From contig JAKSYS010000287.1 in the NCBI GenBank assembly GCA_022925895.1, forward strand, positions 1 to 64,000: a stretch of 64,000 nt of DNA, in the 5' to 3' direction. This document shows positions 39,859 to 45,595 of this stretch, piece by piece. Under the pieces are notes generated by a model, which had not been told where the DNA came from, did no database searches, and was given only the letters and a program-made list of their open reading frames with translations. This DNA comes from Fragilaria crotonensis (lineage: Eukaryota; Bacillariophyta; Fragilariophyceae; Fragilariales; Fragilariaceae). Both the position numbers and the translations under genes were made by a program. How positions within the stretch are numbered: position 1 is the first letter of the stretch; each line of letters starts with the position of its first letter.

Positions 39859-41721
39859 TCAGATCTTAGCTTTCGTACTAATCAGAACGTTTGCTTCGTT
39901 TGGCAAGGTGCTCCCATTCAACTGGCTCAGATATGTCCGAATGATTTCTTGCGCACTCGGGTTCAGACTTGCAACCTTGCGTTCCAGGCTTTCGTCAGCC
40001 CAGCCAGCGAAGCATGCTTCTGACGGCATTCCTCCAAGCGAAGCTCCTTCATGAAGTTCCTTGTTCTTCCAACAGACGCCCATGGCAGTCCATACATCTT
40101 TAGGCACGTGGTGGTCAAGATGCTCTCGCAAAGCATTACTATCGCTTCCTTCGTTTGGAACTGAAAAAGTGGGCCGATGATCGCGACTCCATAGATGATA
40201 GACTACAGTTTGCGGAGGAGCCCAGAGCTGATAATTTTGTTGATGAAATTGCACGGCGCGATATACCTCCTCTCCGAAGAACACTTCATGTGTGAGATAC
40301 GGACAATCGTGAATGGATTCTCGTCGTGCAAAGTTGAAACCGGCAGCGTACAACTGGGTTCGGATTGGTCCTGTGCTTGAGATATCCGACAAGAGTCGCC
40401 CTCGTTGTCGCAGCATGCCCGATGAGTCAAACTTCCAAGGCACCAAGAGCGTGGGACGAATTTCGTTGGGTATCTTGTTTGGTAAGTCGTAACCAATTGG
40501 ATACGTCGTGAGCATAGACTTTCCAGCAGGCAATTGTTCGATAAGGTACACATCCCAATTCTGACGAAAGCGCATGTGTGAATCTATCTGTAGTACATAA
40601 TCTTCATCCCGGTACAGGAGCTGAGCCAATCGACGGGCATAGCACGGACCCCGCGCATCCTTGGCCTGCAAGGCCAGGCAACGAATTTGGGGGTGAGAAT
40701 CAACTGGAGTCGGAGGATCCGTTTCAGGGTCGTACTGCCAAACGAGTCCAATCGTGATACGCGCTGGGGATTGTGCGGTCTCCAATAATGATCGGATTGT
40801 GGGAACGGTTTCGGAATCGCGAAATGATGCGATCGAGACAAAAATGGTTGAGATGGAATCAGATTCCCCTTGGACGCTAAGCGGAGAAGGTCCGGAGGTC
40901 ACCTTGGCTTCTACAGACGGAGGTGAAAGCGGTGAAGCTTGGATTGACGGAGAGTGATTCAGTTTATAATGTAATCGAGTTCCGTAAAACCACATTGTGA
41001 CAGCGACTCGATTCCTCCTCTTGGAAGGCAAAACCTGATGTAAGACCTTGTCTGATCGAAGCACAATGCATCGATTGAACAAGGGAGCAGCATCATAAGT
41101 CGTCTCTCCAACGAAAAGCCGCAGATGCCCTCCATCTTCCTCTGGCGACCAGTCGTGGGGTGTCAGATAGTAAATGCACGTCAAAATGCGTTGCGGATCC
41201 TGAGCTTCGCCTATTTCTGCGGCATACTCTCCATCAGCTGAGCACGCACCACTGACATCACAATGTTGAGGATAACCGCTCTTTCCGTCACCTGGGTAGA
41301 CAGCAAGCTGTACCGAGACCTTGGGTGTAAGATTGAGTGACGATGATCGTGACATGTGCGTCCGCACGGTACCTTCGATCGTACCAAGCAATGTCGAGAA
41401 ATGCGGATGTCGTTCTTGGAAACGTTTGCTTGCTCGAACTTCGGGAGTCAAGAAGGTGCTAGAATCGCCTCTACTGGAAGTAGTTTTGGAGTGTTCTTCA
41501 TCGGAACTGAGAAGCTTCAAGATGGCTTGCAGTTGCGCATCACCAGCGGTTCGCGCAGGTTGGAGACTGGACAACAGTGTCGACCCTAACAATTCTGAAC
41601 GAGCCTCATCGTGCCCTGCATCAAGGAAATGATCCAGAATATCGTAGTGCAAGGGCCCATGAGATAGTTGATTCGTTGTGTTGGGTGTCCAAGATGCAGA
41701 AACAGAAGATGGTGGCGACAT
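39859..41721 (-). CDS. Fusion of prolyl 4-hydroxylase and Skp1-type GlcNAc transferase
   Basis: The first ATG is at 41721, giving 620 residues. Residues about 90-250 form a 2-oxoglutarate/Fe(II) prolyl 4-hydroxylase: HCD at 153-155 (H153 and D155 bind iron), H228 in DKVLHQVLPS, and R238 for 2-oxoglutarate. Residues about 290-560 resemble the GlcNAc family (Pfam PF11397) of Gnt1: IFVSIASFRDSETVPTI, GLVWQYDPETDPP, and DYVLQIDSHMRFRQNWD with Asp380-Ser-His382 as metal site. In Dictyostelium and Toxoplasma, PhyA hydroxylates a Skp1 proline and Gnt1 then adds GlcNAc. One polypeptide holding both activities would couple the steps in the cytosol. Skp1 as substrate is inference from family knowledge. 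There is no signal peptide, consistent with a cytosolic protein. Confidence 0.85.
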   Translation of the reverse strand: MSPPSSVSASWTPNTTNQLSHGPLHYDILDHFLDAGHDEARSELLGSTLLSSLQPARTAGDAQLQAILKLLSSDEEHSKTTSSRGDSSTFLTPEVRASKRFQERHPHFSTLLGTIEGTVRTHMSRSSSLNLTPKVSVQLAVYPGDGKSGYPQHCDVSGACSADGEYAAEIGEAQDPQRILTCIYYLTPHDWSPEEDGGHLRLFVGETTYDAAPLFNRCIVLRSDKVLHQVLPSKRRNRVAVTMWFYGTRLHYKLNHSPSIQASPLSPPSVEAKVTSGPSPLSVQGESDSISTIFVSIASFRDSETVPTIRSLLETAQSPARITIGLVWQYDPETDPPTPVDSHPQIRCLALQAKDARGPCYARRLAQLLYRDEDYVLQIDSHMRFRQNWDVYLIEQLPAGKSMLTTYPIGYDLPNKIPNEIRPTLLVPWKFDSSGMLRQRGRLLSDISSTGPIRTQLYAAGFNFARRESIHDCPYLTHEVFFGEEVYRAVQFHQQNYQLWAPPQTVVYHLWSRDHRPTFSVPNEGSDSNALREHLDHHVPKDVWTAMGVCWKNKELHEGASLGGMPSEACFAGWADESLERKVASLNPSAQEIIRTYLSQLNGSTLPNEANVLISTKAKI

Positions 41722-42193
41722 CCTTGTAGCAAGCGCACTCTTTGAGTCCGTGATCGTTGTTTCCAATCCAAAATCAACCAGTACTCACGGAGTTCTACGG
41801 TTGTACTGGAGTACTACGGGTATGGTGATCATCGTTCGACCTACGTTCCTGTTGGAGTGTACTACCTACTCGTAGTTCTAGTACTACAGGTAATAGGAAT
41901 TGCACCAGCAGTACAGTACTTCAAACTTCAAACCACACATATATTGTTATGCATACTGCATACGGGGATAAAGTCTAGACTACCGGTAGACAGATAGAGA
42001 AAATGTACTGTACTACGTAGTACTCGTACTCCAGTACTCGTAGTACAATTTTACTCGCACTGCGTGTAGTGTATTCAGTGTATAGCGTGCATAGCCGGAT
42101 AGCCAGTAGCCAGTACATTGATGATTGGCGATGTCCGAAGTCAGATTCTTGACATTGGGCAGATGCGAGAAGCCCTCTGCGCTCTACGCCTAG
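41722..42193. other. Intergenic, very dense in GTAC
   Basis: Bases 42005-42050 hold six GTAC in about 45 bases, mostly as AGTACT/GTACTC. The block ends at the CTAG that flanks the piggyBac-like element. No gene is seen. Confidence 0.5.
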
Positions 42194-42401
42194 TGTCTAA
42201 ACGCCCGGGGGGGTTTCTTTAATTAATGACAAATCTGTCTTTTTTTAAAGATGGCCATTTTCGTACGTTTTGCAAGACGGTCGATGTACGTATTGTACCA
42301 TCAACAACGCAAAATTTGACATTGACAATGGCCGATTGCCGTCGTCAATATCATCACATATCTAGCATAAGACTCATAAACTAACTATTGCAACCTATTC
42401 A

Positions 42402-44620
42402 TTATTCACCATGGCTCATTTCTAAGTGGGTGGGAAAGCATAACTTTCCTTTCTTTGTGTGGCAAATCCATGTTGTTGTCGTACACTCCAAGCTATCTTC
42501 ACAGAGCGAGCACATGAACGTTGTCAAACACTTACAGACTCGGCATCGGCCTTGAAGACTATATGGAAGTATATCCCCATTCACTGTTCGCTTCTTCCTC
42601 TTTGTTGGGGTTAGGTGAGCTGATACTCCAGCTCTAGGATCACCCATTCGATCAAAAATCATTTGATTCAGCTCGGCCCGTGGCGTCGACAATCGAAGTC
42701 GAACATTAGGCACATCCAATCTGTTGTCGATGAGTTCTTCAGCAAGCAATGTATAGAATGTCTTCTGCTTCTCCAACATTGCACTCTCGCCCTTGCATTG
42801 ACTGTATGCAAGCCATGTATCGACAACAATCATGGAAAATACAGTCAAGTTTACTCTCATCGACCAATTCTGGGTAACAAGCTTGTTTTCGATTCCAAGC
42901 GTGTCCTGTCGATGACGATTGTGGCGATCGATCATAGCGCACGTTTCATAGTAAACCTCAGCCGCTTTTCGGTTGAGGCACCACCAAATCAACAAGTTGC
43001 GGGTCGGCGTGATCATCACCAGATGCATCCTCAAGTTGCCTCCATCGCTGTCGTTTGTATGGACTCCCTTCCGCAAGCGAAGAACACGTTGCAATGAAGT
43101 ATCGTCTCTGCCGATCCATCCAGACAAAGGCCATCATTTTTGGTTCACTATTCGTCTCGCCGCCTCTTGTTACCATTCCTCTGCGGTCGCCTCGATTGTT
43201 CAGCTCCACTTGTGACAAGTATGGCATGGGATATTGTCGAGTGGCGGACTTCACAACTCCGATGAATCGCATGCCGTATCTCATCATCATGCGTGCTGCT
43301 GGCACCGAAGCAAAGTAGGAGTCGCCACATACAATTCTATCGGTATGCATCCATGGCATGACTAAGTCTCGCATCACCTTTGCTCCGTGCAGAAGTCCTT
43401 CTTCAGACATGATTTGTCCACTCTCGGCTTCGTCCATCAATGAAACATGTCGCGCCTCTTCCTCTGCCGTCTTCACAAGCTTCAAACGAAGCATGATGCC
43501 GCTCGCTCCACAAGATGCACACTGAATCTCGCATCCGTTCTCTGGTTTCCTGTCGATTGCAACATACATAGGGAGGCCATGGTTGATCCAGTGGCCTCCC
43601 TTTCCATACCAACGCGAGATGGATTCATCGACACAAATTCTCTCAGACGGAGAAACGGTTGATGCGCGATGCTCATTGAACTCATGAACAAAACCGTCGA
43701 CCAGTTTCCAACGATACTGCTCTGCAGTCATGTCAGCTGGACGGACCGGTGGCTGATCGCTGAATCGAATGCATCGCCAAAGGTCGTCGAAGCGGTTTCG
43801 AGAAAGGTTGGTCTTACCAAACAATGGAGCTGGAATGTACTTAGAGGTCGCAGTTGTAGCCCAAAGACTTCGACGATCGTCAAATTCAAATTTGCTGCAG
43901 AATTACGACACCAAAGAACCTGAGAACCTCGCCTTTAGTTGTCGTGGGTTTTGAAAGCATCTCAAGCTGTCGTGATGTCAACCGAACAATGGACAAAAGG
44001 GATTGCGGAGGGAACATACATAGAAAATAGTCAAGTCGTGACATTGTCTCGTCACCTCGGTCGCAGTCTTGCTCCAATAGGGTCCCACACAAACTATTTC
44101 GAATGGACCACAGCCGACGGACGACCGGTCCATTTATCTCCTGTTCCAACAGAGACGGATCTGCTTCAAACCACTGGGTGTCGGAAAGTCAACGCTGCTG
44201 GGCTTTCATCGCTGTTTGTTATTTGTTGTGTGACACCAGCGGCTGCTGACGTGGGTGTTGCTGTCGTTCCAACTGCCATAGCAGTTCTGACACTGCTGGG
44301 GTTGTTGCACTACTGCTGTGGTCATCTCGTCTCGCGGGCACTGCTTGTGGTGATCGCTGTTCTTGCACTCCTACATTAGCTTCTTGAGCGACAGCAGGAG
44401 CTGGCGATGCAACAGCAATCGGATTCTCACGTTGTTGGAGAATTACCTTCAACTCTTCGTGAAGTGCCGAGCATCTGACAGCCTTGACACTACGAATGTT
44501 CAGCTTTCCTCGTTTGACTTCATTGTCACCGAAGAAGAAATCGGCAACAATAAATGTAGTGGCGCGGGATCGGCCAGGACGAGCACTGTCTTGGCCAAAT
44601 GCCACAACGACTCCTGGCAC
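42402..44620 (-). CDS. piggyBac-like (DDE_Tnp_1_7) transposase, possibly intact apart from two one-base shifts
   Basis: The order on the minus strand is: an N-terminal region (44222-44620) with VVVAFGQDSARPGRSRATTF and KRGKLNIRSVKA; then, after a possible 60-base intron or break with two in-frame stops (44150-44221), the domain from EQEINGPVVRRLWSIRNSLC. The DDE_Tnp_1_7 core follows: LRFFGVVIL, MFGKTNLSRNRFDDLWRCIRF split here, RICVDESISRWYGKGGHW (first Asp), DRIVCGDSYFASVPAARMM (second Asp) and MIVVDTWLAYSQC (third). A Cys-rich zinc-binding end, CRVCKCLTTFMCSLC...CFPTHLEMS, is typical of piggyBac. Frame changes of one base lie near 43891 (a base missing in CAAATTTG) and at 42966-42969 (four T where three fit). 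Confidence 0.75.
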
Positions 44621-45241
44621 AACTTTTGTTTTTGCATTTGTCCCATAGCGACGACTGCATTCGGCGAGGACGTGACAAACATTGCCTTTGCTTCAACTGA
44701 GGCACCAATGTAGAGTCTTGGGTCGTCCGTGTGACTGGCATGATCAACACAGCTTTGAAAAGCAAGGGAAGTGAAACGAAGCGATCATGAAATAGTGGCG
44801 CACCAACAAAAAAACTCGCAAATTTTTTCAAAGCTCCTTCAGTTTCATTGTCACAACACATGAAGCATCAAAAGTTAGAGATGACCACCAGTTACATACC
44901 TTTTGTTTAAAGCACACTTCAGACAACTGTACTGGAGTGTATTGGCTCAATCAAAGTGAAAGGTAATGAAATCAATGCATTGATTGACGCCTCGAATGCG
45001 TTGACGTTGTGTAGCATGTTTAGACTGCATACTATATATCCGGGTACATTGTGTTATTTTCCGACCCGAAAAACTCGAAAAAATTGGCAACCTTTTTTTG
45101 CCCATTAACAGAAGTCAGGAACTGTCGCTTACTAAGATTTCCCCATTTGGCCCACGAGGTTTGACTCAATGGAGAACACATTCGCCTTGTTGATTTTGGT
45201 GCAAATGACAAAATGACGAAGTTGAGTAGAGGCCAAAAATT

Positions 45242-45287
45242 ATCTTTAATTAAAGATTTCACCACTGAGCGATCTTTAATTAAAGAT
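45242..45287. repeat. Two copies of a 16-base palindrome at the right end of the piggyBac-like element
   Basis: ATCTTTAATTAAAGAT occurs at 45242-45257 and 45272-45287, 14 bases apart. A related CTTTAATTAA sits at 42217-42226 near the left end. Subterminal repeats of this kind are often transposase-binding sites. Confidence 0.7.
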
Positions 45288-45595
45288 TTCGGGCGTTTAG
45301 ACACTAGCATATATACATAGTGAGTCGTGAATGGGCAACTGTACAGTTTCCACTTGACCAGATTAGGAACAGCTGCAGTCGGACCTAAAGCCAATCACAG
45401 GGCTCTATTTTGAGCGCATCATTTCTTTGATTTTCCGACCGAACAATTCCCCAAAACATCGACATGTACAGTACAATCCGGTCAACGAAACCTTGGAGCG
45501 TTGAGCACGCGGAGCAACAGGCTCGCAAGACGGAGATCAGACGTGCGAATAAGGCAATGATCACACTATCGTCTGTGTTAGCTGGAAGTGCAACC

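Follow-up and report, generated by a model that had tools for sequence, protein, structure and literature searches.

A clade of piggyBac-like transposons that duplicates CTAG in the diatom Fragilaria crotonensis

A stretch of 64,000 nucleotides of Fragilaria crotonensis DNA (the window; GenBank assembly GCA_022925895.1, contig JAKSYS010000287.1, positions 1 to 64,000) was found to carry a decayed transposable element of 3,110 base pairs (bp) at 42194 to 45303. Its two inverted ends of 14 bp, TGTCTAAACGCCCG, are identical, and CTAG directly adjoins both, as an earlier note on this DNA had described. The element belongs to a well-supported CTAG-duplicating clade of piggyBac-like transposons, recognized by a 4-bp duplication, a preference for CTAG, the relationship of the transposase, the anatomy of the ends and the single CTAG present at element-free sites. 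We consider it probable that this clade, of about a dozen families, consists of cut-and-paste elements of the piggyBac superfamily with CTAG as target, and that the window holds a decayed copy of one of them.

The exact 14-mer TGTCTAAACGCCCG occurs 67 times on 36 contigs of the 62.1-Mb assembly, the reversed 14-mer used as control does not occur, and about 36 genomic copies carry the exact ends of the window element. CTAG lies immediately outside 52 of the 67 ends; the remaining 15, read singly, fall in four copies with matched variant flanks (8 ends) and in copies with mismatched flanks (7 ends). The window family comprises two size classes, about 3.1 kb (eight copies including that of the window) and about 1.3-1.75 kb; in a sibling family, which has TGTCTAAAGGCCCG, the two sizes are about 2.7-2.8 kb and about 750 bp. 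The DDE_Tnp_1_7 domain matches 84 stretches of the genome, part of which were read. TGTCTA ends were present in the 12 families read, and such ends with CTAG on both sides were seen on C764, C166, C93, C108, C3, C827, C421, C81 and C386 (C and L numbers are our working handles); at C691 one side shows CTAG and the opposite side CTA-CTAG. Clade proteins are as little as about 46% identical to the first one, and the CTAG duplication is the same there. One family-A copy (L027, on C408 at 392-2996) is nested in another element of the clade, which has TGTCTAGCCTCCCG ends and CTAG on both sides.

The flanks of two-ended copies were compared to establish the duplication. The first table, of 41 copies, contained 31 CTAG/CTAG, two CTTG/CTTG, one TTAG/TTAG, one CTAA/CTAA and six mismatched pairs; enlarged with further copies and families (n = 55) it contained 43 CTAG/CTAG, four matched variants and eight mismatched pairs. 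Removal of seven allelic or duplicated copies (L010, L041, L036, L025, L048, L051 and L027) left 48 independent copies from about a dozen families: 37 CTAG/CTAG, four matched one-base variants, seven mismatched pairs and no TTAA. Both sides agree over 4 bp in 41 of these 48. This count leaves aside the one-ended copies on C58, C63, C148, C181, C614, C656 and C692, the one-mismatch matches on C131, C153 (twice) and C650, which contain AGTCTAAACGCCCG with a common CCCGG or CCCGT flank and are apparently copies of one other repeat, and those on C108, C160 and C524, which have no CTAG-like flank and where no element was seen. Since the flanks contain CTAG and TTAA at similar densities (2.5 and 2.56 per kb, respectively), the presence of CTAG on both sides of 37 of 48 copies is not due to chance. 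The earlier note had read a 4-base duplication of CTAG, and not TTAA, in spite of the palindrome; the four matched non-palindromic pairs (TTAG/TTAG, CTAA/CTAA and CTTG/CTTG twice) settle the ambiguity and show that exactly 4 bp next to the TGTC of the TGTCTA ends are truly duplicated in direct orientation. The varied or TTAA duplications that would have told against that note did not emerge: none of the 48 copies has TTAA and the matched variants all lie one base from CTAG, although in seven of 48 the two sides disagree. A weak wider preference was also observed, with T at position -2 in 56% of sites compared to 34% at background CTAG (36 and 102 sites, strands pooled). A Tc1/mariner-like element duplicating TA between a fixed C and G would account for the TA at the centre of CTAG, but it is eliminated for practical purposes by the matched non-palindromic pairs, because the CTTG/CTTG copies contain no TA and TTAG/TTAG and CTAA/CTAA would break the ends if TA were the duplication, and by the DDE_Tnp_1_7 transposase.

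A second DDE_Tnp_1_7 lineage of the same genome, with CGG ends, served as a control (C162, C24, C2, C230 and C706; L096, L098, L107 and L121-L124). It is related to the CTAG clade at a profile-profile E of 1.6e-28; a PDB search with its protein gave no match. The scan for its ends required matching 4-bp flanks and found ends at three of eight loci and none at five, and C230 and C706 were read at ends set beforehand by sequence. Its duplications are AT-rich and begin with A (ATAC, ATAG, AAAA, ATTT and AAAT), and the 4 bp match in all five two-ended copies; no partner was found for a sixth left end (C230, near 153300). The length of 4 bp is common to both lineages and the sequence is not, indicating that the finding of CTAG does not stem from the method.

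The joined flanks of 30 insertions were searched for in the assembly, and nine of them have an element-free counterpart. For the window copy the search matched only the two flanks themselves, so that no element-free site was found in the assembly. At seven of the nine loci at least one counterpart carries a single CTAG. The element-free C209 is identical to C111 over 133 of 133 aligned bases with one CTAG, and one CTAG was likewise present in C449 relative to C316, in C301 relative to C627 (family B), in all seven element-free relatives of C232 and in two of three relatives of C592 (family B). At C647, where the occupied site has an extra CT between element and CTAG, two of three relatives have one CTAG and the third has none. 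The insertion on C133 lies in a diverged repeat; of its 28 listed relatives eight were read, giving one CTAG, one CTAGCTAG and six CGAG. The remaining two loci are C73, whose element-free counterpart C869 (L065) reads CTAGAG, and C489 (family B), where the region of the insertion point is rearranged in its four relatives. For a family-A copy on C489 the two flanks were found apart, the left one at C217 and the right one at C541, and this was not counted as an empty site. The earlier note's expectation that empty sites retain CTAG therefore held at seven loci and failed for some individual counterparts of the C133 and C647 insertions. These relatives also bear on the reading of CTAG as part of the element ends or as a pre-existing, unduplicated flank: the palindrome makes element and flank indistinguishable at one copy, but the single CTAG retained without the element, together with the other tetranucleotides on both sides of four copies, leaves that reading next to no probability.

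The transposase is of the DDE_Tnp_1_7 type, as the earlier note had stated. The window gene is split over several frames by frameshifts, although its fragment still matches the Pfam domain at 1.2e-18; the uninterrupted proteins encoded on C363 (775 amino acids) and by the sibling family on C442 (764 amino acids) match at 9e-37 and 1.6e-45, respectively. The nearest PDB chains are piggyBat 9c0f and piggyBac 6x67, at 3e-9 and 3.3e-6 with a single query (P0001), 8.4e-12 and 4e-7 with a 3-row profile, and 1.5e-11 and 7.5e-8 with an 11-row profile. The catalytic aspartates (Asp) D368, D470 and D602 are invariant in all 11 proteins of the 11-row alignment. D368 and D470 align to D268 and D346 of 6x67 and D602 to an Asp of piggyBat, only the first stretch being strong. 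A putatively zinc-binding C..C/C..C/C/C/H/H tail (C729, C732, C740, C743, C756, C764, H768 and H773) is kept in the 10 full-length proteins, in a region with no Pfam match. The stretch that follows the first Asp is also longer in the clade than in the sister lineage, and it includes a conserved GGHWIN.GLP that the sister lineage lacks. Y389 may be the counterpart of piggyBac Y283; the spacing from the first Asp would then be 21 residues here compared to 15 in piggyBac.

At the end next to the start of the gene, 10 of 15 elements contain a palindrome centred at bp 24-25, usually spanning bp 17-32, for example ATCTTTAATTAAAGAT or GGGGTTAATTAACCCC, and a second palindrome often lies further inward. 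At the opposite end a palindrome is found near bp 22-37 in some elements and none in nine of 15. Random 120-bp stretches of the window contain 0.13 palindromes of at least 10 bp. In the piggyBac structure a palindrome spanning bp 17-33 of one end is the binding site of the cysteine (Cys)-rich domains (PMC7351741), and the agreement in position is independent of the protein sequence. The subterminal TTAATTAA palindromes would accordingly be binding sites of the Cys-rich domain rather than targets.

CTAG is scarce in the genes of the clade, with 4 occurrences compared to 35.8 expected under synonymous shuffling (10 open reading frames; L025, L044, L099-L105 and L113). This scarcity may reflect avoidance of self-insertion; piggyBac is known to insert into TTAA sites of its own (PMC3952818). 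The pattern is only suggestive, because TTAA, TTAG and CTAA are likewise low in the clade genes, open reading frames of the host (23 against 35.6 expected) and of the sister lineage (3 against 9.8) are partly depleted of CTAG, and the families share ancestry.

Relatives were also sought in other collections. Viral contigs gave one locus (L095 and L114, on the same contig), a further clade member on an environmental contig with CTAG at its sole readable end, and the pattern scan returned only that contig. A looser 16-letter pattern matched six stretches, one of them on the L095 contig and the other five taken for chance by estimate. The other genome contig collection searched contained no relatives, and phages searched gave no match. 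The L095 contig (IMGVR_UViG_3300049043_000356) is filed as viral; either it is algal and was misfiled, or the element has inserted into a virus.

A mechanism can be proposed by analogy with the piggyBac transpososome. In that structure the 3'-OH of the cut end forms a hairpin four bases out, and opening of the hairpin yields a flap of TTAA; the TTAA of the target is melted, its outer T and A are bonded to each other, and the omega loop (R275, Y283 and K290) lies near the strand (PMC7351741). In the CTAG clade the transposase would nick each transposon end, the freed 3'-OH would attack the opposite strand four bases out to form a hairpin with a CTAG loop, hairpin opening would give a 4-nucleotide CTAG flap, and the ends would be joined to a melted CTAG target at a stagger of 4 bp. 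The outer target bases would have changed jointly from T..A to C..G; since they are C and G, a paired outer position is possible in CTAG, and the pairing used in the piggyBac structure could have been kept. The likeliest determinant of the target would be the omega loop that follows the first catalytic Asp, which would be longer in this clade and include the GGHWIN.GLP stretch. Both this hairpin chemistry and the residue basis of the choice of CTAG are thus predictions drawn from piggyBac.

Traces at and beside the elements suggest how the ends may be processed. Six ends have an extra CT or CTA outward before the CTAG (both ends of L018, and L037, L059, L063 and L103). These bases match the part of another CTAG that would lie nearest the element (outward CT-CTAG or CTA-CTAG), which hints at a partly trimmed CTAG flap. 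The CTAGAG of C869 and the CTAGCTAG of C50 (L067), a relative of C133, are possible excision footprints, and together with the extra bases they hint that 4-nucleotide ends are processed by end joining. Excision might thus differ from that of piggyBac, with blunt or filled-in breaks being end-joined and footprints left, so that the fold and the 4-bp stagger are common to both and seamless repair is not. The two putative footprints and the extra CT or CTA beside elements favor this alternative, but single-CTAG counterparts at seven of nine loci, even if some were perhaps never hit, make it rather unlikely.

Several observations weigh against a piggyBac-like cut-and-paste element with a CTAG target, or narrow what can be said of it. 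The element-free sites of C73 (CTAGAG) and of one C133 relative (CTAGCTAG) are not seamless, and for this reason footprint-free excision cannot be claimed; single-CTAG sites, for their part, are indistinguishable from sites never hit. The extra bases at L011 are CTTA (CTTA-CTAG), odd ends reading outward CTAC... at L019, L049, L052, L055 and L061 do not fit the flap pattern, nor does the other end of L019 (CTTC...), and since CTA repeats are common in the genome the extra-base pattern has rival explanations. Five of 15 elements lack the palindrome at bp 24-25. Beyond the first part of the DDE domain, similarity to piggyBac is weak; the omega-loop and Y283 assignment comes from sequence reasoning, and an AlphaFold model (L095 plus three window fragments) was unusable, with a mean predicted local distance difference test score of 37.8. 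The support for this reading comes from the comparison of sequences.

In searches of the open-licence literature no piggyBac-like lineage that duplicates CTAG was seen; the mentions of CTAG examined there were unrelated (a stop-codon readthrough context, a figure-legend label, a restriction site, a Helitron table entry and a primer site). The clade resembles piggyBac of Trichoplusia ni and piggyBat in its transposase (DDE_Tnp_1_7 type, three catalytic Asp, Cys-rich C-terminus), in the 4-bp duplication, in a palindrome lying roughly at bp 17-33 of one of the ends and in having unlike left and right subterminal repeats. It differs from them in using CTAG and not TTAA (none of the 48 copies), in its TGTCTA ends and in an apparently longer segment from the first catalytic Asp to the omega-loop tyrosine. 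Pokey of Daphnia, also of the piggyBac superfamily, is likewise known from natural genomic copies, some with off-consensus 4-bp duplications; its duplication is TTAA in 88.13%, with rare TTAT, ATAA and CTAA (PMC3849761), whereas in the present clade CTAG is itself the consensus. Among animal piggyBac types TTAA is duplicated with very few exceptions, none of those listed being CTAG, and the reported ends begin with CCCTT, CCCTC, CCCAT or CACTA (PMC10813416), unlike the TGTCTA ends. Unlike those odd-duplication types, a clade of many families here shares CTAG.

The bacterial IS701 family, set beside the clade by description, has a DDE transposase of the broader IS4-like group and a YTAR consensus; it also has a 4-bp duplication, but is prokaryotic. 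An uncharacterised element of the diatom P. tricornutum, described as weakly related to piggyBac and with a homologue in T. pseudonana (PMC2806351), is a possible relative in a stramenopile alga, known here by a brief description without ends or duplication. CTAG might not have changed from TTAA at all: the clade could be an ancient branch that runs parallel to animal piggyBac, lies closer to the root of the IS4-like/DDE_Tnp_1_7 group and never used TTAA, TTAA being the derived specificity of a different branch. This history, which is compatible with the mechanism proposed above, is a serious possibility to which we give slightly less than even weight. The ATAC, ATAG, AAAA, ATTT and AAAT duplications of the second lineage, TGTCTA ends unlike the CCCTT-type motifs of animal elements (PMC10813416) and the duplication of exactly 4 bp in almost all IS701 elements (PMC2266710) favor it, but the palindrome at bp 17-32 and the closest PDB chains speak for the piggyBac side, though not decisively. 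The change in target recognition proposed in the earlier note implies a TTAA ancestor and should be viewed with caution; the copies read of the second lineage are also without TTAA.

The features of the window element are listed in Table 1. Outside the element, the window contains more GTAC than expected (303 compared to 141) and less TTAA (95 compared to 201). A single open reading frame at 39862-41721 on the minus strand fuses a 2OG-Fe(II) oxygenase domain and a GlcNAc glycosyltransferase domain, which we take to be reminiscent of the Skp1 hydroxylase/glycosyltransferase pair.

Table 1. Features of the CTAG-flanked element in the window
Feature	Position	Strand	Remarks
Left target-site duplication	42190..42193	no strand	CTAG
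Terminal inverted repeat, transposase gene 3' side	42194..42207	+	TGTCTAAACGCCCG; then G run and CTTTAATTAA
Transposase gene remnant	42402..44741	-	Frameshift-broken; whole-gene limits inferred from uninterrupted relative L025
Cys/His-rich C-terminus of remnant	near 42402-42560	-	
DDE_Tnp_1_7 domain of remnant	42958-43824	-	
Internal palindrome 2	45242..45257		ATCTTTAATTAAAGAT; bp 47-62 from end; possible Cys-rich-domain site
Internal palindrome 1	45272..45287		ATCTTTAATTAAAGAT; bp 17-32 from end; possible Cys-rich-domain site
Terminal inverted repeat, transposase gene 5' side	45290..45303	-	TGTCTAAACGCCCG
Right target-site duplication	45304..45307	no strand	CTAG

We tentatively suggest that the target of the superfamily is recodable. 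The stagger and the hairpin chemistry would be fixed, and the hold of the omega loop on the melted strand would set the tetranucleotide, giving CTAG in this old clade, a loose AT-rich target in the sister lineage and TTAA in animals. The clade has TTAATTAA palindromes at its ends and largely avoids CTAG in its genes, and a non-TTAA target would be self-protective; its uninterrupted copies may encode natural CTAG-specific transposases. The transposon piggyBac is widely used in genome engineering. A clade using CTAG with the same 4-bp stagger is a natural experiment on the structural explanation of the strict choice of TTAA by piggyBac, one that names a candidate protein segment and offers uninterrupted transposase genes together with matching short non-autonomous elements. 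The clade also suggests that the choice of TTAA characterizes one part of the superfamily, and not the reaction as such.

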